The position numbers and the translations under genes were made by a program. The notes under the pieces are model-generated. The model was given only the letters and a program-made list of their open reading frames with translations, made no database searches and was not told the DNA's origin. A stretch of 32,672 nucleotides of DNA from an uncultured Eubacteriales bacterium (GTDB lineage Bacteria; Bacillota; Clostridia; UBA1381; UBA9506). Position 1 is the first letter of the stretch; each line of letters opens with the position of its first letter. Positions 1-19,657 of this stretch are shown one piece after another. The stretch is taken from contig CASGBM010000042.1 in the NCBI GenBank assembly GCA_949299615.1, positions 1-32,672 of the forward strand, in the 5' to 3' direction.

Positions 1-45
1 CTTTTGGATAGTTTGAGTGTAACATATTATTTTTCGTTTCGCCAT
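1..45 (-). CDS. Possible 5' end of a gene running off the left edge
   Basis: On the minus strand an ATG at 45 opens a frame reading MAKRKIICYTQTIQK to the window edge. A GAGGA stretch lies upstream at a rather long distance, and a short frame ending EEKM-stop finishes a few bases before this ATG. The basic start and the recombinase remnant next to it would fit a second recombinase of a tandem set, but 15 codons cannot establish a family. Confidence 0.2.
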   Translation of the reverse strand, partial: MAKRKIICYTQTIQK

Positions 46-57
46 AAACCTACATTT

Positions 58-126
58 TTTCCTCGGCGTTTTCTTTCATTTTATCACTGGCGTTGACAAT
101 CGAAAACGGTCTGAACGCCGAGGAAA
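58..126. repeat. 13-bp inverted repeat in recombinase debris
   Basis: The 13 bases TTTCCTCGGCGTT at 58-70 recur as their exact reverse complement at 114-126, 43 bases apart. Both arms translate as an N-A-E-E stretch in their own orientation: minus-strand KENAEEKM and plus-strand NGLNAEETTKR. This suggests a small inverted duplication or a rearrangement junction inside recombinase-derived sequence, not a regulatory hairpin. Confidence 0.4.
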
Positions 127-416
127 CAACGAAAAGAATCAATGCGCTTGCGGATGAAAAAAACGCTTTAGAAGTCAAAATTATGGAGTTAAAAGTTATT
201 CCGGCTGAAAATAAATCCGTCGAAGAGATAAAAGAAATTTTCTCTGCAACAGCAAACATACATAAATTATCTCCCGAAAACCAAAAACTTGTCATACAAA
301 AATTTGTCGATAAAATATTTTTGTATGAAAAAGGGGATAAAAAAATTGTTAGGGTCGTTGTAAACCCTAACAACACTGACGTATCCAGTTTTTTGGATAA
401 TAATGGTCGGGGTTGA
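93..416 (+). pseudogene. C-terminal remnant of a large serine recombinase
   Basis: The frame is open from 48, and the first plausible start is a TTG at 93 with no convincing ribosome binding site. About 105 codons read like the C-terminal tail of large serine recombinases (resolvase/integrase family): an Ala/Glu/Lys-rich helical stretch, then LSPENQKLVIQKFVDKIFLY and an alternating valine strand, KIVRVVV. The catalytic resolvase domain, with its nucleophilic serine, is absent, as are the recombinase and zinc-ribbon domains. The frame ends at a TGA inside the tRNA-Pro gene, so its last codons are chance readthrough into tRNA sequence. It is probably the leftover of an excised or decayed mobile element next to a tRNA. 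The family call rests on the helix/strand pattern alone. Confidence 0.55.
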
Positions 417-480
417 GGGATTCGAACCCCCGGCCCCATGGTCCCAAACCATGTGCGCTACCAAACTGCGCTAAACCCCG
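404..480 (-). tRNA. tRNA-Pro (anticodon UGG)
   Basis: Read on the minus strand, the gene starts CGGGGTTTAGCGCAG at 480 and ends ACCCCGACCA at 404. The seven-base acceptor arms CGGGGTT and AACCCCG pair fully. The D-arm has AGCGCAG/TGGTAGCGC, the anticodon loop is TTTGGGA with anticodon TGG, and the T-arm carries GGTTCGAATCC. The discriminator is A and the 3' CCA is encoded. It starts with C1 like other bacterial tRNA-Pro genes. Recombinase debris begins immediately 3' of the CCA. Confidence 0.96.
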
Positions 481-500
481 ACAGGCAATAACAACTATAT

Positions 501-529
501 ATATTACCTTTTTTCCTCTATTTTTTCAA
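501..529 (-). promoter_or_regulatory. Sigma-A promoter of tRNA-Pro
   Basis: On the minus strand TTGAAA (529-524) and TAATAT (506-501) are separated by 17 bases. This would start transcription roughly 15 bases upstream of the mature tRNA 5' end. No other gene could use it. Confidence 0.7.
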
Positions 530-611
530 GTATATTAAACCGCTATATTTTTAAATTATCTTTCAATTGGTGAGGATTTCTCAAAATTTCTTAGTTTCTC
601 TACCAAAACTG

Positions 612-1646
612 TCATTTTTCATTCCGAAACCAGTCATAAACTACCCCGCACAAAAGAAACAAACCTAAAATGCCAAACAGCGTGTAACAAGATTCTATCA
701 GCTGCGAAAACGGAATCAGCGACAGCGGGATTGCAGCCAGACATAATACCGCGGATACCGCTTTTCGGTTTCCTGTCCGCGCAGAAAAATGCTCGACAAC
801 CGAAAACCCATTGGCAGCGGCCGTCGTAAGCATGGCCATATAAAGCACTACCGCATAAAGAACCGACGCCGCTGACCCCAGACTCTTTGATATTGTCAAA
901 AGAGGCAGCTGCGAGCCGACAATTCCGCTGTATGCTGCGTATAGTACCAAACACGCTAAAACAATGACCCCCAAAAGCGCAAATCCTCCCAAAAGCCCCC
1001 CTTTTACTGCGCCGCTTTTTGAATCGGCAATTCTGCTGAGGGGAACCAGCACCGCTGACGCACTGATCATGTTAAAACTTACATATAAAAACACACTTAT
1101 AAAAAATTTGCCGCTGCCTACCGCAAACGGAAGCCACATTTCACGGTACTGCGAAAGCAAAAAAACAACGCAGGTGAATAAAATTCCGCAAAGCATAAAC
1201 GGAACTAATATACTATTTATTGCCGTTAGCCCTTTTAGGTTTCCTTGCAGTACAATAAAACAAACCAGCGCTGTAAACAGCGCGCCGCCAAGCTGCGGAA
1301 TGCCCAGCTGTTCTTGAAACAGCGCGCCGCCCCCCGCAATCATAATACAAAAACTAACTGCAAGAAACAGCTCTACAATTAAATACAATCCCTTCGCTAT
1401 CTTTGCGCCGAAAACCCGGTGTAAATAATCCTGAAAATTGTATATTTTTAAGGCTTTTGCCCTGCCCAAAACAATTGCCCCGCACAAAGCAAACATGCCG
1501 CCCGCAATCGCTCCGCCCCACAATCCTCTCACACCGTAGCGCACAAAGAATACCATTAATTCCTGTCCGGAGGCAAAGCCCGCTCCTAAAACCGCTCCGG
1601 CATAAACCGCTGCAATCTGCCAAACGTCCCTGCTGTTTTTTCTCAC
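612..1646 (-). CDS. YkvI-family integral membrane protein, putative transporter
   Basis: This 344-residue, strongly hydrophobic protein has about ten predicted membrane helices. Its N-terminus, WQIAAVYAGAVLGAGFASGQE, is the glycine-rich first helix typical of YkvI-like proteins, which are distant relatives of the APC/LeuT-fold amino-acid carriers. The Gly-Ala-Gly break fits an unwound substrate-binding helix. The substrate is not known for this family. Translation starts at a GTG (1646); the ATG overlapping it is followed at once by a stop, and only a weak GCGGGG precedes the start. It is a single gene, divergent from the hisD-like operon, with the DnaA-box region between them. No clear terminator was seen before the tRNA gene. 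Family assignment is fairly sure; function is inferred. Confidence 0.8.
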   Translation of the reverse strand: MRKNSRDVWQIAAVYAGAVLGAGFASGQELMVFFVRYGVRGLWGGAIAGGMFALCGAIVLGRAKALKIYNFQDYLHRVFGAKIAKGLYLIVELFLAVSFCIMIAGGGALFQEQLGIPQLGGALFTALVCFIVLQGNLKGLTAINSILVPFMLCGILFTCVVFLLSQYREMWLPFAVGSGKFFISVFLYVSFNMISASAVLVPLSRIADSKSGAVKGGLLGGFALLGVIVLACLVLYAAYSGIVGSQLPLLTISKSLGSAASVLYAVVLYMAMLTTAAANGFSVVEHFSARTGNRKAVSAVLCLAAIPLSLIPFSQLIESCYTLFGILGLFLLCGVVYDWFRNEK

Positions 1647-1726
1647 ATTTTGCCCCGCTCTCTTATAATTGTTTTTTTATGTTAACCCTATGAAAATGCT
1701 GGTTACACGAACTTTACATTTCTATT

Positions 1727-1738
1727 ACAAACGTTTGT
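1727..1738. promoter_or_regulatory. Perfect 12-bp palindrome, possible operator
   Basis: ACAAACGTTTGT is an exact palindrome between the ykvI-like start and the DnaA-box cluster. Its size fits a dimeric repressor site, but no regulator gene is nearby to support a specific call. Confidence 0.3.
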
Positions 1739-1753
1739 TTTGTTTATAAAACC

Positions 1754-1944
1754 TGTGGATAACCTGTTAATAATGTGGATAACTTTCAAGAAAACTTGAT
1801 TTTAACCGTTTTTTCTGTTGAAAACCATGTGGATAGTGTGGATAACTTTTATTTCCAATTTTCCATATGGTTTACATAAGATTATGATTTTTCGCCGCTC
1901 TTTGCTCCGAATTCTTCTCTTTTTATTAATTTTTATGTGGATAT
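1754..1944 (+). promoter_or_regulatory. Cluster of five DnaA-box-like sites
   Basis: Three exact TGTGGATAA sites lie at 1754-1762, 1774-1782 and 1837-1845. The motif is the reverse complement of the DnaA consensus TTATCCACA. Two one-mismatch versions lie at 1828-1836 (TGTGGATAG, directly abutting the 1837 site) and 1936-1944 (TGTGGATAT). All five point the same way, within 191 bases of AT-rich DNA. The last ends two bases before the -35 box of the downstream operon. The layout fits a DnaA-binding cluster used for titration, transcriptional control or replication origin function. No dnaA, dnaN or rpmH is present in the window. Confidence 0.7.
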
Positions 1945-1946
1945 TC

Positions 1947-1975
1947 TTGAATTTATTCCTATAATAGTATATAAT
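1947..1975 (+). promoter_or_regulatory. Sigma-A promoter of the hisD-like operon
   Basis: TTGAAT (1947-1952) and TATAAT (1970-1975) are separated by exactly 17 bases. The predicted start near 1982 gives a leader of about 55 bases before the ATG at 2037. The upstream DnaA-like site almost touches the -35 box, so DnaA could influence this promoter. Confidence 0.8.
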
Positions 1976-2036
1976 AGAATTTACTATGCAAAGCGATAAA
2001 TTATGGCTTACAGGAAAAGCAAAGGAGATTCGGCAT

Positions 2037-3329
2037 ATGAAAATTCGTGTCTGGAAAGATTGCTCGCAGGAAGAGAAAAATTTTGTGTTAAAGCGCGCCG
2101 AACTGGACATCAGCGAGCAGATGAAACTGGCGATTGATGTCTCAAACGACATCCGCGATCACGGCGATGCTGCTGTTTTAAAATACACAGAAAAATTTGA
2201 TCACGTCACGCTGACACAGGATAAAATAAAAGTGAGCGCAGAGGAGATAGAAGCCGGCTATCAAAATTTAGATCCCGAAACCCGGGAATCCATCGCCTAT
2301 GCCGCTAAAAACATCCGCAATTTCCATTCCAAACAGATGCCGGAGGAAATGTGGTTTACCAATGTTGATGAAGGTTTGATGGTGGGAGAAAAAACAACGC
2401 CTATTGTGGACGTTTGCCTTTATGTCCCCAGAGGAAAGGGCAGTTTTCCTTCCGTTTTGCTTATGCTGGGAATACCGGCTGTGGTTGCCGGAGTGCCGAA
2501 AATTGTGGTAGTAACTCCGCCGAATGAAAAAGGCGATGTTGACGATGCGATTTTAGCCGCCGCAAAAATTATCGGCATTACAGAAATTTATAAAGTAGGC
2601 GGAATCCAGGCGGTTGCCGCCGCAGCTTATGGGACGGAAACCATTCCGAAATGCCATAAGATTATTGGTCCCGGAAACGCCTACGCAACGGCCGCCAAGC
2701 GTGTTTTGGCAAACCATATTGACGCAGGTCTGCCGGCGGGACCGAGCGAAGTTATTATTTTGGCAGACGAATTTGCCGATCCGGAAAAATGTGCGCTGGA
2801 CGTTATGATCGAGGCGGAACACGGCCCGGATTCTGCCGCTCTTTTAGTTACCCACTCGAGGGATTTGGTGGAAAAAGTTCTTCCCATTATTGACCGCCAG
2901 CTTGAAAAAATCTCTGAAAAGCGGCGCAGCTTTGTCACTACTAACTTTGATACATACGGCGGCGTAATTTTGACCGAATCTTTGGAGGATTCCATCGCTT
3001 TTGTCAATGAATATGCGCCCGAACACATGGAAGTTATGACCAAAGACCCGTTTGCGGTTTTGGAAAAAATAAAAAATGCCGGTGAAATTTTGCTGGGTGA
3101 ATATACACCGGTCACCTTGTGCAATTTTGTGCTGGGACCGAATGCCATTTTGCCGACAGGGGGGTTTGCAAAAACCTATTCCAGCGTTTCTGTCATGGAC
3201 TTTTTAAAACGCTCTTCCGTGGGTTATGCCAGCCGGGAAGGCTTTGAGCGGGTCAGAAACCATGCCTATAACATTGCTAAGGTGGAAGGCTTTGATACGC
3301 ACGCTTTGGCGGTGAAAGAAAGGAAATAA
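2037..3329 (+). CDS. Divergent histidinol dehydrogenase-like protein (HisD family)
   Basis: This 430-residue protein has the HisD fold and length. Canonical HisD oxidises L-histidinol to histidine in two NAD-dependent steps using zinc. Start: ATG at 2037 with AAAGGAG nine bases upstream; an in-frame ATG at 1986 lacks this. Conserved: GPGNAY, PAGPSE, AEHGPDS, the catalytic Glu-His pair (E329/H330), the zinc-ligand histidines H262 and H422, and E417. Changed relative to E. coli HisD: zinc ligand Gln259 is Glu, zinc ligand Asp360 is Asn (N363), and substrate-contacting His367 is Ala (A370). The GDYASGTNH region reads CNFVLGPNA, and the usual YxPGG reads YVPRGKG. It is first in a cluster with equally divergent HisB. 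It may be a HisD paralogue with another alcohol or aldehyde substrate. Family is sure; histidinol as substrate is doubtful. Confidence 0.85.
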   Translation: MKIRVWKDCSQEEKNFVLKRAELDISEQMKLAIDVSNDIRDHGDAAVLKYTEKFDHVTLTQDKIKVSAEEIEAGYQNLDPETRESIAYAAKNIRNFHSKQMPEEMWFTNVDEGLMVGEKTTPIVDVCLYVPRGKGSFPSVLLMLGIPAVVAGVPKIVVVTPPNEKGDVDDAILAAAKIIGITEIYKVGGIQAVAAAAYGTETIPKCHKIIGPGNAYATAAKRVLANHIDAGLPAGPSEVIILADEFADPEKCALDVMIEAEHGPDSAALLVTHSRDLVEKVLPIIDRQLEKISEKRRSFVTTNFDTYGGVILTESLEDSIAFVNEYAPEHMEVMTKDPFAVLEKIKNAGEILLGEYTPVTLCNFVLGPNAILPTGGFAKTYSSVSVMDFLKRSSVGYASREGFERVRNHAYNIAKVEGFDTHALAVKERK

Positions 3330-3333
3330 GCTT

Positions 3334-3963
3334 ATGAACAGCAATAAAATTACGGTTACGCGCAAAACAACGGAATCGGAGATGAAAGTGGAACTTGACG
3401 GTTCTGCCCTCGCGCCGGACTACCGTTCCAAAATTCGCACCCCTGTGCCGTTTTTCAGCCATATGATTGAGCACATTGCGTGGCGCGCAGGCATCACCAT
3501 TTGTGTGGACATTTCGCTGGACCAATTTTTCCTGCATCATGTCATCTATGAGGATTTGGGAATCACTTTTGGGAAAGCGGCTAGAGAATATATTTTGCGC
3601 AACAAGGCAAACGGCGCAACCGGTTATGGCGATGGAATCGGGATTATCGACGAGGCAAAAGCCGAATGTGCAGTTAGTTTTGAGGAGCGCGCCTATTTTG
3701 GTTTTGACGCGCAAGCGATCAAGCTGCCGGCTTCTACCGAAGGGGTCAACTCGGAAGACCTTGTCACATTTTTAGAAGGGTTTTGCCAGGGGGCCATGTG
3801 CACCTTGCATTTGGACCTTACGAAAGGTGTGAACGGGCACCATATTTGGGAAGCGGCTTTCCGTGCTTTTGGGATTGCTCTCGGCCGTGCGTTTTTCTTA
3901 GATGAACGCCGCAAGAATATGTCTGCCGGCGTTGCCGGTTCGGTGGAGTTTCTCATTGATTAG
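3334..3963 (+). CDS. Divergent imidazoleglycerol-phosphate dehydratase-like protein (HisB family)
   Basis: The protein has 209 residues, close to the usual size of single-domain HisB (about 195), and follows the hisD-like gene by four bases. The two IGPD half-repeats are visible: RKTTESEMKVELDG, FFSHM (H43), an HH...ED segment (68-74), IDEAKAE, and GVNGHHIWEAAFRA (H169, H170, E173). Departures from the family are marked. FFDHM is FFSHM and the following His-Gly is Arg-Ala. DDHHTVED reads LHHVIYED, so without a gap one metal-ligand histidine becomes Val. The C-terminal phosphate-binding Ser-(Thr/Ser)-Lys-Gly is missing (SAGVAGS instead). Partial keeping of metal ligands with loss of phosphate contacts suggests a different, perhaps unphosphorylated substrate. 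The alternative is a fast-evolving true HisB. Confidence 0.8.
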   Translation: MNSNKITVTRKTTESEMKVELDGSALAPDYRSKIRTPVPFFSHMIEHIAWRAGITICVDISLDQFFLHHVIYEDLGITFGKAAREYILRNKANGATGYGDGIGIIDEAKAECAVSFEERAYFGFDAQAIKLPASTEGVNSEDLVTFLEGFCQGAMCTLHLDLTKGVNGHHIWEAAFRAFGIALGRAFFLDERRKNMSAGVAGSVEFLID

Positions 3964-3976
3964 GCAGGAGGATACC

Positions 3977-5035
3977 TTGAAACGTTTTAAGCTTGCTTCT
4001 TTTTTAGACCGGTATGACGCTGTTTTGTTTGATATGGACGGCGTTGTGACCAGCGAGCAAATGTATTGGAATTCTGCTGCGCTTGCTGTATTTGAAATGT
4101 ATTTTGGAAGTCATTATTACGGCAGTGAGACATTAAATGCAGCCGTATTATCTGAACATATGGGCAGCATCCGCCGCCGGATTTTCTGCTGTGACCAAAC
4201 CATTCGCACCGTGAAAAACCGGGGTGTCAACTCGAATTGGGATCTTGCCTATGTTGTGCTCGGCGCCGCGCTGTATTTGGAAATCAGCGGCGATTTTAAG
4301 GCAGTTTTAGCATATCTTGCGGACTTTGAGGGCGATGTGTTTTCCCTGTATAATGCCGTTGCGGAAAACCTTTCGGTGAAGTTTCAAAAAACGAAGGACT
4401 ACTATGCGCGCCTGGGCCCTTTTTGGCAGGAAGTAAAAAACTGTTTTCAGGAGTGGTTTTTGGGAGACAGGCTTTGTCAAAAGAGCGGCTTTTCCCAGCC
4501 CGTTCTCTGCGGCAAACCCGGTTTGCTGCATTCGGAAGAGCCGCTGGTAGATAAAGAAAAGCTGATTTGCCTGCTTCGGTTGCTCCACAGCAGCAACAAG
4601 CATCTCAGTGTTGGAACCGGACGGCCCCGCTTAGAATGCGAAAGCGTGCTTTCGGCTTGGGGCGTTTCCCAATATTTTGCGCCCGGCTGTCTGATCACAT
4701 ATGATTCTGTGACGGAGGCAGAACAGGAGCTGGCTTCTTATGGAATCTGCGCAGAACTGACAAAACCGCATCCGTTTATGTTTATAAAAGGAATGTTTGG
4801 AAATACCATATCTGCCTTGGATATTTTTCAGGGACATTATGATGCCGGCCTCTTGCGGCGAGCACTCGTTGTCGGCGACGCAGGCGCGGATCTTTTTGCC
4901 GCCAAAGCGGCGGGATTTGGGTTTGCTGCGGTTTTAACCGGCGTGCAGGGGCAGGGCGCCCGCAGTTTTTTTGAAAAAGAGCAGGCAGATTTTATATTAA
5001 ATGATGTATTAGAATTGATGACGGAGACACAATAA
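3977..5035 (+). CDS. HAD-superfamily hydrolase with a large cap domain
   Basis: The start is TTG at 3977, five bases after a perfect AGGAGG, giving 352 residues. Motif I is FDMDGVVT (nucleophile D19, acid/base D21). Motif II is a Thr/Gly strand LSVGTGRPR. The lysine of motif III is in LTKPHPF, and motif IV is VVGDAGADLFAAKAAG. About 200 residues between motifs I and II form an unusually large helical cap, expected to set substrate specificity. The family hydrolyses phosphate esters, or more rarely C-P or C-halogen bonds. Its place after HisD/HisB-like genes recalls HAD-type histidinol-phosphatases. Given the altered neighbours, a phosphatase for another intermediate is equally possible. Its TAA shares a base with the ATG of the next gene, so the two are probably translationally coupled. 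Confidence 0.85.
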   Translation: MKRFKLASFLDRYDAVLFDMDGVVTSEQMYWNSAALAVFEMYFGSHYYGSETLNAAVLSEHMGSIRRRIFCCDQTIRTVKNRGVNSNWDLAYVVLGAALYLEISGDFKAVLAYLADFEGDVFSLYNAVAENLSVKFQKTKDYYARLGPFWQEVKNCFQEWFLGDRLCQKSGFSQPVLCGKPGLLHSEEPLVDKEKLICLLRLLHSSNKHLSVGTGRPRLECESVLSAWGVSQYFAPGCLITYDSVTEAEQELASYGICAELTKPHPFMFIKGMFGNTISALDIFQGHYDAGLLRRALVVGDAGADLFAAKAAGFGFAAVLTGVQGQGARSFFEKEQADFILNDVLELMTETQ

Positions 5036-5565
5036 TGAATATTACTTTGCCTTTTACTGACGAAATCATCAGCCAGTTGCATGCGGGCGACCGCATAACC
5101 ATATCCGGTACTTTATATACTGCCCGCGATGCGGCGCATAAGCGCATGACGCAGCAGCTTTGCGGCGGAGCATCTCTTCCGTTTGATCCGAAGGGTCAGA
5201 CCATTTATTATGCCGGTCCGTGCCCCGCAAAGCCCGGCCACGTCATTGGTTCCTGCGGCCCTACCACCAGCGGCAGAATGGACGCTTATACCCCCGCTTT
5301 GCTGGATCTTGGGCTCAAGGCAATGGTCGGAAAAGGTCAGCGTTCAAAAGAGGTCGTTGACGCCATGGTCCGAAACCACTGTGTTTATTTGGGCGCGATT
5401 GGCGGCGCCGGGGCGCTGTATTCCAAATGTATTACCTCCATGGAAGTAATTGCCTATGAAGACCTTGGCCCGGAATCGGTCAAAAAACTAACGGTAAAAG
5501 ATATGCCGCTTACGGTTATTATTGATTGCCGCGGCAATAATTTATATGATTTGGCAGCAAAATAA
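5035..5565 (+). CDS. Class I fumarase / tartrate dehydratase beta-subunit-like protein, alone
   Basis: The 176 residues match the C-terminal (beta) subunit of Fe-S-dependent class I hydro-lyases (fumarate hydratase, L-tartrate dehydratase). Visible marks are LHAGDRITISGTLYTARDAAHKR near the start, YYAGPCPAKPG, the signature GPTTSGRMDAYTPALLDLG, and MVGKGQR. In two-subunit enzymes the alpha subunit (about 280 residues, carrying the cysteines of the 4Fe-4S cluster) normally lies directly upstream. Here a HAD gene takes that place, and no alpha subunit occurs anywhere in the window. Either the partner is encoded elsewhere or the beta domain works alone or in a new complex. The one-base overlap with the HAD gene suggests the two products act together. 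Confidence 0.88.
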   Translation: MNITLPFTDEIISQLHAGDRITISGTLYTARDAAHKRMTQQLCGGASLPFDPKGQTIYYAGPCPAKPGHVIGSCGPTTSGRMDAYTPALLDLGLKAMVGKGQRSKEVVDAMVRNHCVYLGAIGGAGALYSKCITSMEVIAYEDLGPESVKKLTVKDMPLTVIIDCRGNNLYDLAAK

Positions 5566-5633
5566 AAACAATAACTGCAGGTAAGAAGGTCCCATTTGTT
5601 TTTTATGATATTATAATTTAGGAGGAAACTAAC

Positions 5634-5843
5634 ATGGCAAACAAAGTAACCAAAGACACAATTATTATGGATGTACTGCAAATGAATGCCGATACGGCAC
5701 AATTCTTTTTTGAAATTGGGATGCACTGCTTGGGCTGTCCGTCTGCAAGCGGCGAATCCATTGCTGAAGCGTGTGCTGTCCACGGGGAAGATGCGGACGT
5801 TTTGGTAGATAAAATCAACCGCTTTTTAGCAGAAAATGAATAA
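5634..5843 (+). CDS. DUF1858 redox-disulfide domain protein
   Basis: This 69-residue protein begins after a strong AGGAGG. It matches the DUF1858 / hybrid-cluster-protein-associated redox disulfide family: TKDTIIMDVLQ, an alanine/phenylalanine helix, then the GMHCLGCPSASGESI motif with a CxxC at the N-terminus of a helix. Members occur alone or fused to redox enzymes in anaerobes and are thought to use the cysteine pair for disulfide or metal chemistry; no reaction is firmly known. It lies 68 bases after the fumarase-beta gene on the same strand with no terminator between, so cotranscription is likely. A redox partner for the Fe-S hydro-lyase is conceivable but unproven. Confidence 0.88.
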   Translation: MANKVTKDTIIMDVLQMNADTAQFFFEIGMHCLGCPSASGESIAEACAVHGEDADVLVDKINRFLAENE

Positions 5844-5910
5844 CCTGCGCCCTTTCAAAAATTCACTTATTTGACTGCGCGGGAGTTATCTAAAACCATA
5901 CGAATTTATA

Positions 5911-5962
5911 AACCTTTTCGGCGGAGAATGATACAAGAGGTTTTTCGCTGAAAGGGTTTTTT
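5911..5962 (+). terminator. Terminator of the hisD-like operon
   Basis: Arms AACCTTTTCGGCG (5911-5923) and CGCTGAAAGGGTT (5946-5958) pair over 13 positions, with two G-U pairs and a 22-base loop. A run of six T follows. It closes the five-gene + strand cluster. Confidence 0.65.
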
Positions 5963-5976
5963 ATGCCTTATGGCAC

Positions 5977-6014
5977 AAAAAACGAGACGGGCAGAAGAAA
6001 AATTGCCCGTCTCG
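5977..6014 (-). terminator. Terminator of the giant surface-protein gene
   Basis: CGAGACGGGCA (5983-5993) and TGCCCGTCTCG (6004-6014) form a perfect 11-bp stem. On the minus strand this is followed by six T, 20 bases past the stop codon of the 3104-residue protein. Confidence 0.9.
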
Positions 6015-6033: not shown

Positions 6034-9000
6034 TTACTTTTCTAAAAACCGCTGCAAAATGGTTGCTGTTTCTGCACGGGTGGTGTTCCCCTTTGGATCA
6101 AGGATATTGTTATCTTTTCCGCTGATTAACCCCGTACCAACTGCCCAGCTGATATTTTCCCTTGCCCAGGCTGATACTGTGCTTTCATCCGCAAACACAC
6201 TCAAATCTCCCTGTCCTTCTATTTCCATTGCTTTGTAATCTGCATAACGGTTCATAATCGCCGCCATCTCTTCTCGGGTTATATTCTGATTCGGCGCAAA
6301 TTCCGTGTCGGAATATCCGTTTACAATCTTTTCGCTCGCTGCCCAACGGATGGCTTCGCCGTAATATGCGCTCTCATCTATATCTGTAAACGGCATCAGA
6401 TAATTCACTGTCGGCTGTTGTTCCAGACGCCATAAAACCGTTACCAGCATACCCCGGGTAATTGTTTCATCAGGTGCGAATGTGTTTTCTGTCATGCCCG
6501 CAAACAATCCATTTTTATTTGCATATGCAACTGCACCATAGAACCAATCTGACTCCTTGACATCAAGGAACGGATTTTCCCATTGCTCCGTTTCAGAAGG
6601 ATCTGTTGGATTTGTCGGGTCCGATGTTCCCGAAGATCCTGACGATCCCGGCGTTCCCGAAGAGCCTGATGAACCTGACGGATCCGTCGGGTTGTCCGTT
6701 TCGGTTTCTCCTTCTGTCCATTTTGCGTACAAGGTCATGTTTTTCGTTACCTTGGCCGTGAAGTCATATGCTTCTGTGCATTCCGCATCTGTGTACCAGC
6801 CGCTGAAGGTATAGCCTTCTTTGGTCGGATTTGCCGGTTTTACAAGCGATGAATTTTTGTTTACGCGAACGCTTTCTACCTTGCTTCCGCCCTGGGTGTT
6901 AAATGTTACAGTATAGGAGGTGTTCTGTCCCGACGGTGCATATGGTGACCGCAAAAGGCTTAACGTATAATTCTTATCACTAACCGAAAATTGGATGGTC
7001 TGATCCCATCCCGTAATATTGACAGCAAGGCTGCCGCCTGTTCCCATGTCCGTATCTTGAATTGTTACCGTCCCGCCGTCGCCGGAATATGCCGTAATGA
7101 TCAGGCTTTCTGGCGCTTCTTTTGGCAGAGTGAAGGTATAGGTGTATACGCCTTCTTCATCTAAAGTAAATTTATCCTTGGTTATCGGCAAGCCTTCAAA
7201 GGTCAAAATCTCTTCGCCTTCTGTCAGGGTCTGCACCATGACCCGGGCGCCTGCCTGGCTGAATGAAATTTCATCCACCTGTTCCGTTTCGCCAAGCAAC
7301 TCGCCGGATATGTCTGTCTGTTGGGTTTCCAGTATCTTTCCGTCCTTCGCCAACAGGTACGCCATCAGCTTGCCTCCGGTATAGTTCTGCAGAGCGTTGT
7401 TTCTTAAGACGATCCGTGCAACGGTGTTCCCGGACTCGTCCGTACCCTGCTCTACATTCAGGCTGGCCTTTTCCCCTTCTCTGGCAAGCGCACCGGTCAG
7501 TAACACCGTCTCCTGATTGTCGGAGCGGTTATACTCCGGAAGCCGCACTTTTTCGCCCTGGTCTCCTATCTTCCCTTCTGTCCATACATCTGCATAGAGG
7601 TATACGCCGGTTTCCGGTACTTCTGCCTGCTGAAGTGTTGTTTCTACATAGTCCTTCAAATCAAAGGTAATTTCCATGTTAAACACATCCTGGTCAATCC
7701 GGCTGAGCGCCTCTTTGGAAATGATTGCCGTATTGCCCTGTACTTCGACGTCGGATGTTTGGCTGCTTATCGCTGCCTTTTCCGTGAAGAGGTCATCGGT
7801 GTAGAAATCTATTTTAACAGTCCTGTCCTTACCAGCCAGTGTGGCGTCGGACAAATTATACAGGGTGATCCCGATCGTCCTCTTCCCGTTCTCCTCTTTG
7901 AGCACTTCCATCCGTGAAATGCCGATATCGGGATAATCAAGATATACGGTCCCGTACAAGTTCACATTTCCGCCGTTTGCCGTAATCATGTAGTCTACAT
8001 CTTCTATTGTACTGCCGATCTTATGCAAAACAGGGATAGTTGCGCTCTGGTTCGGAAGCAGGGTGCCGTCGAAAACTGCCGTCTCGCCATTGCCCAAATC
8101 TATTTGCAGCCCGGCCAGATCGTTAATTCCCGTGTTGCGGATGGGGAACAGGATTGTTGTCCAGTTGTTCGCGCGCAGGTTTTGATATTCTACCCCGATT
8201 TTTTCCACTTCTGCCGCATCTAACGCAAAGCTGGAAGTCGCTGTGTAGAGCAGGATCTCTTCGCTGGGGATATACACTCCGCCCACATCTACTAAGGCGT
8301 CGTTGTTGTACTTTGTTGCCTGAATAATTGCTTTAACCTCATTAGAACCGCTCACATATGCCTCAAACTGATCCGCAAGGGTATTGTTCGGAAGGGTTGC
8401 CAGTTCCAAAGCAGACGACAGCAGATAGCCGCCATTCCCGTCGCTGCGCAGTTTTGCTGTTTTTAAAACACTGTGGGCTGATATCGTGAGCCCGTTTGCG
8501 TCCGATTCGTCCGTAATATTCTCATTCCATATAATGCTCAGGTTTTCTACATTGGAATAATCCCCGCTTAAAGAGGCAAACCGGAAATCGGCCCCTATCA
8601 TGGCGCCGTTCGCATTGGTCAGTTCTGCCAGCGAAGCAGGGAAACTGTTTGAAATAATGCCGTCTGTGCTGATTGCCGCCAGCTGAATGTCACTCTTATT
8701 GTTCCGCACGCTGTGCCAGCCGATAATAAACCGGTCGTCTCCTTCTTGGAAATTTGCGCCTATAACCTGCGGGTTTTCATCCAGATTGCTGTCTGCGGTC
8801 AGCATCATCGACGTTAGGAAGCTTCCGTCATTTTTCACAATGCTGTATCCCGTTTCATAATCTGCGGTATTGCTGTTTCCGCCTTTGTCCAGTGTATATA
8901 CCGCAATCGCCGTGCCATCCGGCAGCATTGCCGCCTCCAGGGCTTTGACATTGCCGCTGGTGCCGTTATACAGGGCCTTGGCTTCGCTCCAGCTGCTGCC

Positions 9001-12000
9001 GTCGTAATAGCTGTATACAATTGCATCCTGGGATTTAAAGTTCAGCAGGTTTTCATCATCTGCGCTGCTGTATACGCTTCTCCAGAACACGATGGCCTTG
9101 TCGCCGTTTGCCGCCACTGCAGGCGCCAGATCCGGCGTGCCGTTATTGGTAAGGCGGGTAGAGATCCAGCCGCTGCCGTCGTAAACCGATGCCACAATTT
9201 CGCTGCTGTTCATCAGCAGGTTTTGTTCTTCTATATTAATTTCATCCCCCGCGTCTTTTTCCGGAATCCGGCTGCTCATGCGTACCCACGCTGCGGCGGC
9301 AAAGTCTTCGCTGCCGGCAATGTCTGCATCGCTGTCTCCAAACCCGGAAAAGTCTGCCGGGTCTGCAATATTTGCCGGCACCGAATAACCGTCTGCGCCA
9401 AGGAGGCTGTATTGGATCCTGCTGTCATAAATGCTTTTACTGTCGCGGTCTCCGATGTGCACCAGCACTTTCCCGTCATCGCTGATTTCCGGATAGGCAC
9501 CGGGGTTCGCGTTTTTCTGAAGATTTTTCAGCCCGCTTTCTTTATCTAAGCTAAAGAGGGAAATCCCTCTTTTTTCCTCTCCCCACGTACGGGTATTTTG
9601 TGTCAGATAGTCCCGGCTTTGCAGTTTTGCCGTTGCAGACGCAACGCGCAAGCCATTGGCTGCCGCCTCGGACTGGAGTGACATTAGGGACAGTCCTGAA
9701 GTAGCGCTATCCCAATATGTTTCAATGTCGTCATACTGGTGAAACGTCTGTGTCGCGCCCCAAGAGCCCGATGCCAGTACCGCCTCATAGGAGATAAACA
9801 GGAATTTTGCAACAAATTTAATTCCCGCTTCTCCCAAAATTCCGACAGACTGGCCGTTCATCTGGCGTTTGGATTCATCCGCCAGATACGTCCGGGATAA
9901 GAATTTGTTTTGGTTATCCACCGTAAGCTTGCCAAACACGCCAAACTTCAGCGCCACAACCGAATAGTCAAAGCCTATTCCTCCAAACGCGGAGACATAG
10001 GCGTTAATCCGCAAGGTAGTCAAATAATCATTTACCGCGCTAAGCTCCGGATCGCTCCACGCAAGGTCATCGCCCTGCTGGCTGTACCGCACGGCGGTCT
10101 GAAAGTCAAGCTGGATCGTGCCGCCCAGTTCAAAAGACGCCGTTACCGGAACCGGCCCTACCGTAGTGTTTACATTAAAGTTAAACGCCGCTCCCACGCC
10201 GGCGGTAAATCCGCCACTGGTGGTATAAACTTCCCACTTTTTCTTCTCCAGATTATACCGGATTTCTGCTTCATAAAACCCCTCAAGCTGCAGGTTAAGG
10301 TCTGTTCCCGTAAATTGCTTTTTTGAAGAATTTTGCCGGTATGTTTCCATCGGGTTATACGTTCCCTGCGCCATTTCGCTCAAATCACCCACGCCCGGAA
10401 CATTCATTTCCGCTTCAGCCGAAAGGAAGTCAGCATCAAGGGCAACTCCTTTTTCTGAATAATCCATATCCTCCAGTTCTATCGTGTTATATCCCGTCCA
10501 GATCAACGCCTTAAACACGCTGGGATCCTCGCTGGGGGAGATGATCATTTTAAATATGGAAGAATCTACCGGCCCGTTAATTTCGCTCAGCTTGCCGGTC
10601 AATGTTTTAAATATGCTGCTGCTGCCTATTGACCCAAAGTTAGAGGCGCCCACAATACTTGCACCTTTCATGGTAACCAACATGTTGGTCACATTTTCAT
10701 CGTCGCTGACCTCAGGCACCCGTGACAAATCAATCAGGCGGAATGGCATGGTGCGTTCCTGCACCAGGCTGGAATCCTTTGTGACGCGGGTCTTTATGCC
10801 TATATCTTTCCCGTCTTTAATCCAGCCCGAATTGGTCATGCTTTCTTCGGTCAGCGTTAATACGTTAGTAACAACGGGAATCGATGCAAACGGATACTGT
10901 TCGTTGCTGCTGATCTGCCCATCGGGTATAAAGCCGTTTTCATCCGCCATTTTAAGATCAAAGTAGGGAGCGTCCTTCATGTCCTCGCCCCACAGGTACA
11001 TGATCGTTTGCAGATCTGCGGTTTTATAGGAGCTGCTGGGGCCTACCCTGCCGGTAAAATTACGAACATTGTTCACCTTGCCGTTGTCCAGATGGTAGTC
11101 GACAACCTGGTATGCCACAAACGGCTTGTTTGCTTCTCCCTCTGCAACCTCTTCCAGCGAAACAACCCCTTCTGCCGTGCGGATTTGGTCCACCATGCTG
11201 GTACCTGTATATACCGTATGCAGCAATGGATAATACCGGTTTTCTGCTATTTCACTAATTTCAAAAATGTATTCTATCTTATCCGTGGATATCAGCGCCG
11301 TATCTTCCGTTTCTCCGTTTTCTGATGACCAGAACTGGGTAACGTCAAAATACACTTCCACCGTCCCGTTTGCATCCGTTTGATACGTCTGACCTACGCC
11401 GCCGTTTTCCATGGAATCCACATTCGGGCCGAGTGCCGCCGTTTCACAATAATAGCCGTTTTTATACACGCCGCCGCGGATCGTTACATCCGTATTTGCC
11501 AGCGGGTCGCCGCCCGGTTTGATCAGGGTCAGCTCTGCTTTTGCCACTTCGCGCAGGCAGAAAATGTTCATCGGATAAAGCTGCAGTTTTGCCGCATCTT
11601 TTTCTCCCGACTGCAGATTCCTTTGATATAGCGTTCCCATGTATAGCGTATCCCCGTCTTTTGACCGAAGCCATACGTCGCTCGCTATCCCGTTCGGCTC
11701 ATAAAGCGCCAGCGTTCCGTCTTCGTTGGTCGTTTCCGTCCGCCGGTTTCCCTGTCCGTCGGTATACTCTAGTGTAGTGGTCACCGCAGGATCTACCTGG
11801 AATAGATAAAACCGGTTCTCTAAGGTTTGAGAATCCACCGCTATTGATGTGCTCATTCCGGTCGCAGCATGGGTTGCCGTAATAGTGGCATGACCGCTGC
11901 TGGTGGAACTGATTCCCATTGTGCTTTGAGGCAGGAATGACGTAATATCAAAATTCTTAATGTTTTCATACAACCCGCCCTGTTTATAGTTAACAGAGGC

Positions 12001-15000
12001 TACTGCATCGTTGTCTGTTTCCCACGATATGCCGTCTTTAAACGCGTTCCAGTTATACTCCTCATGGTTGATACTGATATAATCCATCAGGCTCAGCTGT
12101 TGACGCAGGTTTGCAATTTTCAGCGTGTCGGTCGGCAGCTCGTTCGCGCTTCCATCCACCTTGGATGTATTATCAAAGCTCAGATGGTCTATTTCTTCGT
12201 TTTGGCTGTTTACTATCTTTAAAATATCTCCGTTGTATACATACAGCGGGAACGAATCGCTGCTCGGCGCACTGGTTCCCAGATTGTCCACTGTAAGCGT
12301 TACCTGATAGGTATGCTTCAGTTCGCCCTCCGCCACGTCGCTGATCGAAAGCAAATAGCTGCCCGTGGCTGTATCAACAGGATGCGTTATGGTATTTACT
12401 ACCGTATTGTCCTCCGCCACCTCATGAATGGTAAGAACTGCATTTTGTCCGCTGCCTTCCGTCCAGTGTTCTAACTCCCACGGTATCTTTATGTTGTCCG
12501 TCTGATCGGTCAGATAGAGATTCTCCGGCTGTATCAGTCTCGCTGTCGCCGGCCAGGGATATACTACTATCCACGCCATGGCGCTCAGCCGTATCCCGTC
12601 CTCTAAGGCATGGGGGTGCGGCATGGACACCCTTACCGTATAGGCCGCTGCATCATCTTTGGATAACTGATGGAGTATTCCCTCTCCAATTTGGTATTGA
12701 TTTGCATCCAGCGCGGCAGTGTCCTTCAAAATCGGGGTCGCTCTTGCCAATGCTTCTTCGTTTGCATAGTTCCCTTCAAACAACTCTATTTGGAAAGTAA
12801 ATTCCTTATCTTCTACAAAATACTGCGCGTTGGAACTCCAAAGCACCGTTGCTGCCTCGTCCTGACGGGCAATTATGGCGGTAGATCCTGTCGGTATCAC
12901 CAGAGCAATTGAGTCCCCCGCAATAACCTGATACGTCTGCGTTTTGCCGGATACTTCCTCTGTTTTGCCTCCGTTATCTGCCGTAAATATAAACTCAACA
13001 GCACCCAGCGCCGTTCCTGTCAGTGTAACTGCTCCCGTATTCGGGTCAATGGTCGCAATTTCCGGATTGCTGCTGCTCCATTCCCCGCCCTGGAACGTAG
13101 GCGTTTCCCCGCTTTCGCTTTTTAGCGTTGCCGTCAGCGTCGGGCGATAGGTGTCTCCCAGCGACAGCGTATAATTGGATGGGTCGCTCTCTGCCGTAAC
13201 CAAAACTTCTGTCACGGGGATAAACTTCGGTACGGTGATGGATTTTTTGATCCACGGCACATCTACCCAGTTGGGTTCTGCCCTGGAACCTTCATTTGCC
13301 TGAAGTACGGCCGTATAGGATACATCGGTTTGTTTTCTCTCTATTTCAAAAGGATTGGTTTGGTAGGTCACCCCGTCATCTGCCACATAAAACTGCTGCG
13401 CTTCTATCTCGCTGCCGTCCGACCCATACAGAAGCACCCTGAAAGGCAGTTCCTGCGGGCTCGTACCTCTCCCATAATCAGTATAAAGCGTTTGATATGC
13501 TTCCGTAGCATCCAGAGACAAGGTAAAGCTTGCCGTATCATTTTCATATTTTCCATCCAATTCGGTAGCGGCATTGCGCATCAGTACAGTATTCAGGCTG
13601 GCTCCTGTTACCGTTTCCCCGTTTATTTCTACCGGATTCCCAAACAAGTCCGTAATCCCGTTAAGTATTGATACGGTTATCGTTTGACTGTCCAAAAATT
13701 GTACCGGATACCACAGATAAACGGAGTTTGAGGAAGTAGAAAGACCCACCTCCGCCGCTTTAAAATCCTTGCCGTTAATGGTAATGGTAGCATTTTTGTC
13801 AATTTTAACCATTTCATCAAATTGTAGTTTAATATAAACGCACTGTCCGGGAGAATAAGTACTCTCCGTTGTGGTAACGCTTCGCAGATTCGGGCTTGTT
13901 TCATCGTCAATTAAAGATATCGTACAGCTTTCCAAAACACCAATAATCCATTCCAGTCCCGGGCCGCCCACGCTGGTGTTAAGCGCACTAAATAGTTCCA
14001 AGGCTACCGGGATGGCGCCTGAACTTCCATAGCCGATAAAATCAATTTTATATTTTTCCCCGGGCTGAAGCGATTTCCCTGTGATTTCGTCATAAGATTC
14101 GATAATGACTCGAAAATTTGACGCTCCATAATTCATACTCGTATCTGTTTCTGTTGCTTTATTTGCATTGTTGGTCTGTGAAACTTCGGCTGTAAAACGG
14201 TAGTGTACACTCGTTTCCTCTGTTCTATCATATATTTCACTTGCATTCTGCATGCGGTCAATCAGGGAATTCAGTCTGGAGGAGGGAGGATTCGGAAACT
14301 TGATAGACTGTTCCAGTGACACGCCTGTCCATTTGTGTTCTGAGCGCCCAGCGGTTTCGGTCGTTGAAAGATCTTCCATATAATAATGGATCAGCCTAAT
14401 GCTATGCTTATCCATATAGGCGCCATTACTATAAAACAGAATTCCTTTGGGATTGGACAATTCCAGCAAAGCGGTATTATAGCCATTCAAAGATTGCCAC
14501 CCTGTACCCTGAAGGGATACGGTGATCTTTGCCCCTGTCTGCGCAGAACTTTTTGCTTCATATGACAGGGAACTGGTCTGTGTCTCTTTCATCGGCCATG
14601 AATTTACGTTGATTGTTGTACTGGCTAATTTAGAGTTATTACTATCCACAATAGAGACCGTAACGTTTTTAATTTCCCGGCTGGAATATCCCGGGATCAA
14701 GCTGACATCAAAAGAAACGGTTTGCCCGAGCGAAATATCAAATGAATTGGAAGAAAGAGAGGTGTTGTTGCCATCCGTAAAATCAAGCATTGTAAAATTG
14801 CTGACATCCAAGGTGCTGATAGAATCAGAAGCGGCCATCGTTTGGGCATTTAGCGTGCTTGTCAGCTGGATACCCTCTGCCTGAAGCTGGTTCATCAGGC
14901 TGTTTAGATTTGACAGCGCCTCGCCGGTAAAGGGTTTGCCGGAAAAATAGGTTTCCTGGATCCTTGCCAGTTCTTTTTCAATTTCGATGATTGTTTTCAA

Positions 15001-15348
15001 GTCTTTCAGCGGAATCGGCGTACCGTCCACATAGCCAATGCGGTCAAGGTTCGTAGCCGGATCTTCCAACAGCTCCATAACCTCATCCAGTGTAAGCTCC
15101 TCGCCGTCTAACGAGATGCTGTAATCGGTTTTAATTTCCCCATTTTCATCCAAAAGACCCAGTGCTTCTAGCTGTGCGGCAATTTGCTGTGCATCCATGC
15201 CGCTCATTGCGGAAAGCTGGCTTAAGATTTCCGTATTTTTTTGGGGATCATTTCCCAAAAGATCATTTACCGCTGCAAATACCGTGCTTTGAAGCAGGCT
15301 TATCACCAGCGTCAGGCATAATAGCATAGATAATAATTTCTTTTTCAT
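6034..15348 (-). CDS. Giant secreted SLH-domain cell-surface protein (3104 residues)
   Basis: Start: ATG at 15348 with AAGGAGG seven bases upstream. A typical Sec signal peptide (MKKKLLSMLLCLTLVISLLQ, ending near STVFA) heads the protein. Recognisable parts: a helical Leu/Glu-rich N-terminal stretch to about residue 160; an Ig-like (BIG2-type) stretch near 710-800 with WSSSNPEIATIDPNTGAVT; a Gly/aromatic-rich region near 1730-1860; and a later segment with repeated DGS-W and F-like phrases (about 1980-2330) suggesting a beta-propeller. Near 2800-2870 is an InlB/Listeria-Bacteroides repeat (VTFNTQGGSKVESV, FSGWYTDAECT), then a Gly/Ser/Pro/Thr linker, and three SLH repeats from about 2920 to the end. 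SLH repeats usually bind pyruvylated cell-wall polymer. It is probably a large surface adhesin or enzyme scaffold; no catalytic domain was recognised. Its start overlaps the stop of the small upstream gene. Confidence 0.9.
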   Translation of the reverse strand: MKKKLLSMLLCLTLVISLLQSTVFAAVNDLLGNDPQKNTEILSQLSAMSGMDAQQIAAQLEALGLLDENGEIKTDYSISLDGEELTLDEVMELLEDPATNLDRIGYVDGTPIPLKDLKTIIEIEKELARIQETYFSGKPFTGEALSNLNSLMNQLQAEGIQLTSTLNAQTMAASDSISTLDVSNFTMLDFTDGNNTSLSSNSFDISLGQTVSFDVSLIPGYSSREIKNVTVSIVDSNNSKLASTTINVNSWPMKETQTSSLSYEAKSSAQTGAKITVSLQGTGWQSLNGYNTALLELSNPKGILFYSNGAYMDKHSIRLIHYYMEDLSTTETAGRSEHKWTGVSLEQSIKFPNPPSSRLNSLIDRMQNASEIYDRTEETSVHYRFTAEVSQTNNANKATETDTSMNYGASNFRVIIESYDEITGKSLQPGEKYKIDFIGYGSSGAIPVALELFSALNTSVGGPGLEWIIGVLESCTISLIDDETSPNLRSVTTTESTYSPGQCVYIKLQFDEMVKIDKNATITINGKDFKAAEVGLSTSSNSVYLWYPVQFLDSQTITVSILNGITDLFGNPVEINGETVTGASLNTVLMRNAATELDGKYENDTASFTLSLDATEAYQTLYTDYGRGTSPQELPFRVLLYGSDGSEIEAQQFYVADDGVTYQTNPFEIERKQTDVSYTAVLQANEGSRAEPNWVDVPWIKKSITVPKFIPVTEVLVTAESDPSNYTLSLGDTYRPTLTATLKSESGETPTFQGGEWSSSNPEIATIDPNTGAVTLTGTALGAVEFIFTADNGGKTEEVSGKTQTYQVIAGDSIALVIPTGSTAIIARQDEAATVLWSSNAQYFVEDKEFTFQIELFEGNYANEEALARATPILKDTAALDANQYQIGEGILHQLSKDDAAAYTVRVSMPHPHALEDGIRLSAMAWIVVYPWPATARLIQPENLYLTDQTDNIKIPWELEHWTEGSGQNAVLTIHEVAEDNTVVNTITHPVDTATGSYLLSISDVAEGELKHTYQVTLTVDNLGTSAPSSDSFPLYVYNGDILKIVNSQNEEIDHLSFDNTSKVDGSANELPTDTLKIANLRQQLSLMDYISINHEEYNWNAFKDGISWETDNDAVASVNYKQGGLYENIKNFDITSFLPQSTMGISSTSSGHATITATHAATGMSTSIAVDSQTLENRFYLFQVDPAVTTTLEYTDGQGNRRTETTNEDGTLALYEPNGIASDVWLRSKDGDTLYMGTLYQRNLQSGEKDAAKLQLYPMNIFCLREVAKAELTLIKPGGDPLANTDVTIRGGVYKNGYYCETAALGPNVDSMENGGVGQTYQTDANGTVEVYFDVTQFWSSENGETEDTALISTDKIEYIFEISEIAENRYYPLLHTVYTGTSMVDQIRTAEGVVSLEEVAEGEANKPFVAYQVVDYHLDNGKVNNVRNFTGRVGPSSSYKTADLQTIMYLWGEDMKDAPYFDLKMADENGFIPDGQISSNEQYPFASIPVVTNVLTLTEESMTNSGWIKDGKDIGIKTRVTKDSSLVQERTMPFRLIDLSRVPEVSDDENVTNMLVTMKGASIVGASNFGSIGSSSIFKTLTGKLSEINGPVDSSIFKMIISPSEDPSVFKALIWTGYNTIELEDMDYSEKGVALDADFLSAEAEMNVPGVGDLSEMAQGTYNPMETYRQNSSKKQFTGTDLNLQLEGFYEAEIRYNLEKKKWEVYTTSGGFTAGVGAAFNFNVNTTVGPVPVTASFELGGTIQLDFQTAVRYSQQGDDLAWSDPELSAVNDYLTTLRINAYVSAFGGIGFDYSVVALKFGVFGKLTVDNQNKFLSRTYLADESKRQMNGQSVGILGEAGIKFVAKFLFISYEAVLASGSWGATQTFHQYDDIETYWDSATSGLSLMSLQSEAAANGLRVASATAKLQSRDYLTQNTRTWGEEKRGISLFSLDKESGLKNLQKNANPGAYPEISDDGKVLVHIGDRDSKSIYDSRIQYSLLGADGYSVPANIADPADFSGFGDSDADIAGSEDFAAAAWVRMSSRIPEKDAGDEINIEEQNLLMNSSEIVASVYDGSGWISTRLTNNGTPDLAPAVAANGDKAIVFWRSVYSSADDENLLNFKSQDAIVYSYYDGSSWSEAKALYNGTSGNVKALEAAMLPDGTAIAVYTLDKGGNSNTADYETGYSIVKNDGSFLTSMMLTADSNLDENPQVIGANFQEGDDRFIIGWHSVRNNKSDIQLAAISTDGIISNSFPASLAELTNANGAMIGADFRFASLSGDYSNVENLSIIWNENITDESDANGLTISAHSVLKTAKLRSDGNGGYLLSSALELATLPNNTLADQFEAYVSGSNEVKAIIQATKYNNDALVDVGGVYIPSEEILLYTATSSFALDAAEVEKIGVEYQNLRANNWTTILFPIRNTGINDLAGLQIDLGNGETAVFDGTLLPNQSATIPVLHKIGSTIEDVDYMITANGGNVNLYGTVYLDYPDIGISRMEVLKEENGKRTIGITLYNLSDATLAGKDRTVKIDFYTDDLFTEKAAISSQTSDVEVQGNTAIISKEALSRIDQDVFNMEITFDLKDYVETTLQQAEVPETGVYLYADVWTEGKIGDQGEKVRLPEYNRSDNQETVLLTGALAREGEKASLNVEQGTDESGNTVARIVLRNNALQNYTGGKLMAYLLAKDGKILETQQTDISGELLGETEQVDEISFSQAGARVMVQTLTEGEEILTFEGLPITKDKFTLDEEGVYTYTFTLPKEAPESLIITAYSGDGGTVTIQDTDMGTGGSLAVNITGWDQTIQFSVSDKNYTLSLLRSPYAPSGQNTSYTVTFNTQGGSKVESVRVNKNSSLVKPANPTKEGYTFSGWYTDAECTEAYDFTAKVTKNMTLYAKWTEGETETDNPTDPSGSSGSSGTPGSSGSSGTSDPTNPTDPSETEQWENPFLDVKESDWFYGAVAYANKNGLFAGMTENTFAPDETITRGMLVTVLWRLEQQPTVNYLMPFTDIDESAYYGEAIRWAASEKIVNGYSDTEFAPNQNITREEMAAIMNRYADYKAMEIEGQGDLSVFADESTVSAWARENISWAVGTGLISGKDNNILDPKGNTTRAETATILQRFLEK

Positions 15349-19600: not shown

Positions 19601-19657
19601 GGAGATGACCATAGCAAGAGACAAAACAACGGAAACCAGTTTTTTGAGATTTTTCAT
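16631..19657 (-). CDS. SLH-domain S-layer-like surface protein (1008 residues to the TAG)
   Basis: Start: ATG at 19657 with GGGAGG about 12 bases upstream. The signal peptide MKNLKKLVSVVLSLAMVISA is followed by cleavage near VSA. SLH repeats occupy about residues 28-200: TFGDVETTASYYEAV...LGILEGDENGNFNGDAEIKRSEFA, then FTDVSADHWASGYINWAAQQ...GIFDPDAPVKYEEAI. The remaining ~700 residues are Asp-, Thr- and Val-rich beta-type sequence with few cysteines, typical of S-layer assembly domains, and I see no enzyme motif. The C-terminus is a (PTAT)n tract encoded by 12-bp repeats. A near-consensus promoter, long leader and own terminator fit high expression as a main wall-coat protein. The natural C-terminus may be 40 residues longer. 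SLH identity is sure; being the main S-layer protein is inferred. Confidence 0.92.
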   Translation of the reverse strand: MKNLKKLVSVVLSLAMVISAMAVTVSAKTFGDVETTASYYEAVDVLSSLGILEGDENGNFNGDAEIKRSEFAAVVCRAMGQENAANGSKGTTIFTDVSADHWASGYINWAAQQKIVNGKGDGIFDPDAPVKYEEAIKMLVVALGYEPLAVQKGGYPTGYFVIAASNRINDGVSLAGNANAPRSVVAQLTYNALDVPLMESSYISLNGYSEYNIYDGTDYARRTLLSHYLDITKVKAEVVDTPRSNNTLVNKNGNNRVRIELINSYKFDWDDILDGAYDNTDAYNNMTLYVGDTNADDYLGYTVVAYIGLDEDDNYVLKAITPDTKSVDVLEVTANFDYADYDSATFEYYESKDDINTQEVDLATYNNQPDFTVYLNGVKLDSADAKTVFNSIDDAGKAPSKVVFMGNKSSGVYDKVFVTRYTYALVTEVNLEDEIIYTNGPDIELSKDLRSDKFVYTLEMDGAPIELADIQENDVLNIICSGADVEFPDLADDNITYMDIVVSRNTVEGTVTEEVDPQTRTYVINGEEYDLAPDAADVSIGDAGRFFLTIDNKILDMDTEWSGEGASGTNYGFITKIGYTESFGEPTYQVKMFTQDGSFVTLDIDDTLYVYYETTSDGKKVVVKSPALKNVAIDGANNDQTDYFDDTNGTLKAAIADQNSEAAAIANIPKRFITYKLSSDGTIREIRLAVETNDTSEFNYSKASGNSYRESSERFCGATFTGKSILMYAPASQVGSKWNIDEDDLEVLSFAGLDEDGTYDNTFLFDSDRDRNIGIAIATEGVDTNKKSALAVATTISTTIGSDGIEAKKVTFLQDGETKSAIISDNCDDLDDLEIGDIFQYSLSGDEIVKGSMVFDYYDKDLLAKDTESIQFVYGYVDGKETRYITVDGNEYDFATGEDVGTVAVIEDSKMANNSRNAVTRLSSLSSLKKPNSQYEYMVVLKIDDGLVVDAVQIQYDEGKAPTTATTTPTATPTATPTATPTATPTATPTATPTATPTATPTATGSGE
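16656..16763. repeat. 12-bp tandem repeat (nine units) encoding Pro-Thr-Ala-Thr
   Basis: Nine units of GGTGTTGCAGTC (plus-strand reading) lie head to tail, with degenerate partial units on both sides. Variation is limited to the last base (C/T) and one interior change in the final unit. Being a multiple of three, copy changes keep the frame and only alter linker length. Such Pro/Thr tracts serve as extended, often glycosylated, wall-spanning linkers. Confidence 0.9.

Follow-up and report, generated by a model that had tools for sequence, protein, structure and literature searches.

A conserved cluster of predicted DnaA boxes outside the replication origin, upstream of hisD, in uncultured gut Clostridia

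A dense, same-direction group of DnaA boxes ahead of a metabolic operon could be a chromosomal origin, a site of DnaA titration or part of a DnaA-controlled promoter. Which of these applies is the question raised by the intergenic region upstream of hisD in the window (the whole 32,672-nucleotide stretch analysed here, from an uncultured Eubacteriales bacterium). To our knowledge, few model bacteria are known to carry DnaA sites away from the origin. The preferred answer, to which we assign a probability of roughly 0.5, is that positions 1677-1879 may form an off-origin DnaA-assembly module that takes up DnaA and perhaps also acts on nearby promoters.

An earlier note had described five sites in this region, at 1754-1944, and its core stands: the window sequence contains three exact copies of TGTGGATAA and a one-mismatch site, TGTGGATAG, that abuts the last of them, all in one direction (Table 1). 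The fifth site, also one mismatch away (TGTGGATAT), does end two bases before a -35 box as stated there, but the site is not conserved among 12 relatives and probably matches by chance. Thus, the conserved cluster spans 1754-1845 rather than 1754-1944. The earlier anatomy was also incomplete, as it missed the boxes TGTTAATAA at 1765, which abuts the exact copy at 1774, and TGTTGAAAA at 1816, together with an inverted pair of flanking elements, the brackets (TTATGTWAACY). The conserved structure consists of two direct-repeat triplets of boxes between these brackets, with start-to-start spacings of 11/9 bases in the first triplet and 12/9 in the second. All six boxes lie on one strand in the same direction, and the third boxes of the two triplets are 63 bases, or six helical turns, apart. 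C occupies box position 6 in four of the six window boxes (1754, 1774, 1828 and 1837), not in those at 1765 and 1816, and mostly not in relatives. The hisD module is a case of several predicted DnaA boxes clustered outside oriC, the property that defines an off-origin DnaA-box cluster.

Table 1. Features of the hisD intergenic region and its flanks, in window coordinates
Feature	Position	Strand	Sequence or remark
Divergent membrane-protein-like gene	612..1646	-	No Pfam match; YkvI-like by eye only
Left bracket element	1677..1687	+	TTATGTTAACC; consensus TTATGTWAACY
Conserved stretch	1728..1749	.	CAAACGTTTG-TTTTGTTTATAA; ends in weak box-like TGTTTATAA (1741-1749)
DnaA box 1, triplet 1 (predicted)	1754..1762	-	TTATCCACA
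DnaA box 2, triplet 1 (predicted)	1765..1773	-	TTATTAACA; form common at the family's oriC
DnaA box 3, triplet 1 (predicted)	1774..1782	-	TTATCCACA; abuts box 2
DnaA box 1, triplet 2 (predicted)	1816..1824	-	TTTTCAACA; among the two commonest forms at the family's oriC
DnaA box 2, triplet 2 (predicted)	1828..1836	-	CTATCCACA; least conserved of the six
DnaA box 3, triplet 2 (predicted)	1837..1845	-	TTATCCACA; abuts box 2
Right bracket element	1869..1879	-	TTATGTAAACC (= GGTTTACATAA on +)
Fifth site of the earlier note	1936..1944	-	ATATCCACA; not conserved
Sigma-A-like promoter of the hisD operon	1947..1975	+	-35 TTGAAT (1947-1952), 17-base spacer, -10 TATAAT (1970-1975)
hisD (histidinol dehydrogenase)	2037..3329	+	Pfam; first gene of operon

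Chance accounts poorly for this arrangement, as had been supposed. The genome to which the window belongs (2.39 Mb, 208 contigs) holds 33 exact TGTGGATAA copies; from that number, the expected count of three copies falling within 92 bases, anywhere in the genome, works out at about 2e-5. Same-strand TTATYMACA pairs separated by 30 bases or fewer are confined in this genome to three loci, on contigs C42 (the window), C106 and C133, where they lie upstream of hisD, pyrH and dnaN (oriC), respectively; the reversed-pattern control for such pairs gave 0 matches in the same genome. Three strict sites within 200 bases are found only at the hisD cluster and at oriC in 0.96 Mb of one relative, and nowhere in 4.8 Mb of simulated sequence.

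Conservation was assessed by aligning the window with 12 relatives recovered from gut metagenomes, those of goat and sheep among them. The family genomes are fragmentary metagenome assemblies; counts use a family list of 20, and some handles duplicate one genome, as judged by identical coordinates (for example, G001 and G019). The earlier note had let its proposal hang on conservation in relatives, and these do keep the module layout, mostly with TTATCAACA, TTATTAACA or TTATTCACA boxes. Within the intergenic region, conservation is highest in the boxes (mean column identity 0.92 versus 0.66 elsewhere), a six-box template scores best in its true register among all placements, and box variation is concentrated at the fifth base of TGTkrATAA. 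Beside the first triplet, CAAACGTTTG (1728-1737) is a perfect palindrome that is partly conserved in relatives. One metagenome-assembled genome, SIG439, carries two hisD contigs (L040 and L042) and a module on each of them, a sign that the bin may be mixed. The only Rfam match in window positions 1-6000 is a tRNA at 407-480; the region is therefore not a known riboswitch or leader.

According to Pfam, the hisD operon extends to 5565 and encodes HisD, an IGPD-like protein, a HAD hydrolase and a fumarase C-terminal protein; this operon (2037-5565) is kept in many relatives. Farther along the window, 6034-15348 encodes a putative surface protein of very large size (3104 aa), and 16631-19657 a protein of 1008 aa with terminal TPTA repeats. 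Genus g3 retains the triplets beside the divergent membrane-protein-like gene, the neighbour that remains where hisD has been lost. Because the module outlives hisD in g3, a hisD-only switch is unlikely.

A second module lies upstream of pyrH (C106:4740-4769 in the window's own genome). Its 12/9 triplet was found upstream of pyrH in 15 genomes by tblastn of PyrH on matched loci, and in G025 by reading the sequence. pyrH adjoins its module in 16 of the 20 family genomes, whereas the module's opposite neighbour varies, a combination that favours promoter control at pyrH. In G015 (genus g2), a triplet match lies beside a prolyl-tRNA-synthetase-like gene instead, as judged by eye. In the sister family f3, 11 of 15 triplet matches precede a trmK-like gene, and a bracket element is close to some of them; the triplet search pattern fixes the spacing, so that only shared location counts as independent evidence in that search. 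A literature search for DnaA boxes in connection with pyrH returned no relevant paper. The pyrH module and the g3 genomes together weaken the earlier suggestion that the hisD operon in particular is tied to replication.

The best-placed alternative is that DnaA serves at these sites chiefly as a transcription factor, such that expression of the hisD and pyrH operons is set by replication state and DnaA uptake is incidental. Both modules are upstream of sigma-A-like promoters: CTTGMA starts 99-133 bases past the last hisD box (13 genomes), and the promoter at pyrH lies 54-108 bases past the last box. The boxes have the same orientation relative to the gene at both loci, the steady adjacency of pyrH points the same way, and B. 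subtilis DnaA is a transcription factor at some sites (PMC4447404). However, the distance from boxes to promoter is not fixed, the module is retained in g3 after the loss of hisD, and the f3 triplets mostly precede trmK, which leaves no common functional theme. Control of transcription is rather unlikely as the main role. That uptake is the principal effect is nonetheless the least certain part of the preferred reading, and is judged an even call.

As an uptake module, the region would work as follows. DnaA would recognise the six same-direction boxes within 1677-1879 and would assemble head to tail on both triplets; the module would thereby take up DnaA, preferentially the oligomerising ATP form. 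Such uptake could temper initiation, much as with datA or the Bacillus DnaA-box clusters, and might incidentally affect the hisD and pyrH promoters downstream.

On the identity of the binder, the comparative evidence is strong. The dnaN-side (oriC) regions of 17 family genomes carry mainly TTATCAACA, TTTTCAACA, TTATTAACA and TTATAAACA; TTATCCACA is infrequent there. The proportion of boxes with C at position 6 is correlated between oriC and the modules (Spearman 0.76, and 0.59 as a partial correlation for local GC, in 16 related genomes with kinship uncorrected). The recognition helix reads RNHAT in all 16 recovered family DnaA proteins, at the position of RDHTT in the E. coli, B. subtilis and M. 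tuberculosis proteins; alignment with E. coli (1J1V) and B. subtilis (8BTG) DnaA gives the changes D433N, T435A and H439N. Residues 433, 434, 435 and 439 contact bases of the box (PMC7561715, PMC5043019). Elsewhere the helix contains DHST (Ructibacterium), DHTT (f4) or DRTT (most of f3, read by tblastn). DRTT in most f3 DnaA proteins (L300-L315) corresponds to H434R, and the f3 triplets use TGTGGATAA and CGTGGATAA. Given that the same unusual boxes are found at oriC and that the family DnaA is altered at three base-contacting residues, DnaA very probably binds the hisD module; the earlier prediction of DnaA as the binder thus gains support from lineage-specific box variants that also fill oriC. 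Recognition of the boxes by some other protein would fit the A at box position 6 in most relatives, which is outside the classical TTATNCACA consensus, and the brackets, which point to at least one further binder. The presence of the same variants at oriC in the same genomes, their co-variation with the module boxes and the altered DnaA residues all speak against it, and it is improbable.

A broader and more tentative proposition, held at somewhat less than even odds, is that DnaA specificity has shifted in this family (D433N, T435A, H439N; box TTWTYAACA), and that oriC and two dedicated modules, meaning off-origin, fixed-spacing box triplets beside bracket elements, have changed along with it as one replication-control system. 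The residue changes may be what caused the box change. Sequence comparison in these uncultured gut Clostridia yields a matched set that comprises oriC, the two modules away from it and the changed recognition helix of DnaA. If the proposition is true, the family offers a natural test of the joint evolution of DnaA specificity and its sites, and origins in such lineages will escape searches with TTATNCACA.

The brackets form an inverted pair; 193-196 bases separate the two in the 10 aligned genomes with a match to both, and the spacing is the same in further genomes. TTATGTWAACY is rare, with 2-13 copies per genome, and its genome-wide counts are close to or slightly above control counts; in 0.96 Mb of G001, four of the seven copies are the two module pairs. 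The element is probably the site of a separate protein. It also occurs upstream of surface-layer-like protein genes with no DnaA boxes nearby (L333, L336, L339), and the module may thus consist in part of ordinary promoter sequence. The element presumably resembles the XerD arm of dif, a likeness that we treat as a lead. It would have the module work with a terminus or segregation protein, for which the near-constant spacing of the inverted pair and the concentration of copies at the two modules in that relative could be cited. A fuzzy search found no dif-like site, and the copies at surface-protein-like genes and the counts barely above control weigh further against the idea; dif/XerD was set aside as a main reading and is a minor, quite improbable rival.

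The origin itself lies elsewhere. In the relative G001, the cumulative GC-skew minimum, at 58,062, falls at the box cluster ahead of dnaN (C14, about 58.1-58.4 kb), which has parA/parB-like genes nearby; GC skew flips there, and the dnaN-side cluster is oriC. The GC-skew analysis that the earlier note had recommended thus places the flip at dnaN, with none at the hisD module (C15:55.3 kb, on a 427-kb contig) and none at the pyrH module (C11:61.8 kb) of the same genome. The cumulative skew maximum on C15, at 153.8 kb, is about 100 kb from the hisD module, which places the module on the terminus side in G001. The family's dnaA gene is not linked to dnaN or oriC (L033 on C96 and L180 on C133 in the window's own genome); it is upstream of a recF-like gene, on a contig other than that of dnaN. 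No box cluster was found beside dnaA on its contig, and an oriC next to dnaA was rejected for that reason. GC skew, not dnaA linkage, therefore settles the origin, and the earlier judgement that the hisD cluster is not oriC holds, although its argument from the lack of a nearby dnaA or dnaN was only half sound. Despite its dense boxes and AT-rich stretch, and a dnaA gene whose position cannot decide the matter, the hisD cluster is most improbable as an origin or second origin and was rejected as oriC, because skew passes through it with no flip and flips at the dnaN-adjacent cluster.

Among known systems, the closest firmicute parallel is provided by the B. subtilis DnaA-box clusters, which are likewise intergenic and away from the origin, and the deletion of all six of which leads to early initiation (PMC5295017). 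The present family differs in the two modules found per genome, fixed triplet spacing, brackets, other loci and, in most relatives of the window genome, another box sequence. E. coli datA is also an off-origin cluster, with essential boxes all in one direction (PMC5742627), as are those of the hisD module; datA is further characterised by an IHF site among its boxes and by stimulated DnaA-ATP hydrolysis. Moreover, datA depends on early duplication near oriC, while the hisD module in G001 is not near oriC and lies about 100 kb from the skew maximum. E. coli DARS1 and DARS2 share a three-box core with fixed spacing, but in them box I faces the other way from boxes II and III (PMC5742627), unlike the uniform direction of the six hisD boxes. 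The DnaA-controlled promoter of B. subtilis sda has a DnaA-box array in its promoter region (PMC4447404), whereas the conserved boxes of the hisD module stop about 100 bases upstream of the promoter. Epsilonproteobacterial DnaA likewise combines a lineage-specific box preference with changes in helix 5 of domain IV (PMC5043019); it prefers T at position 5, whereas here the shift is at position 6, where A replaces C, and the changed residues are 433, 435 and 439.
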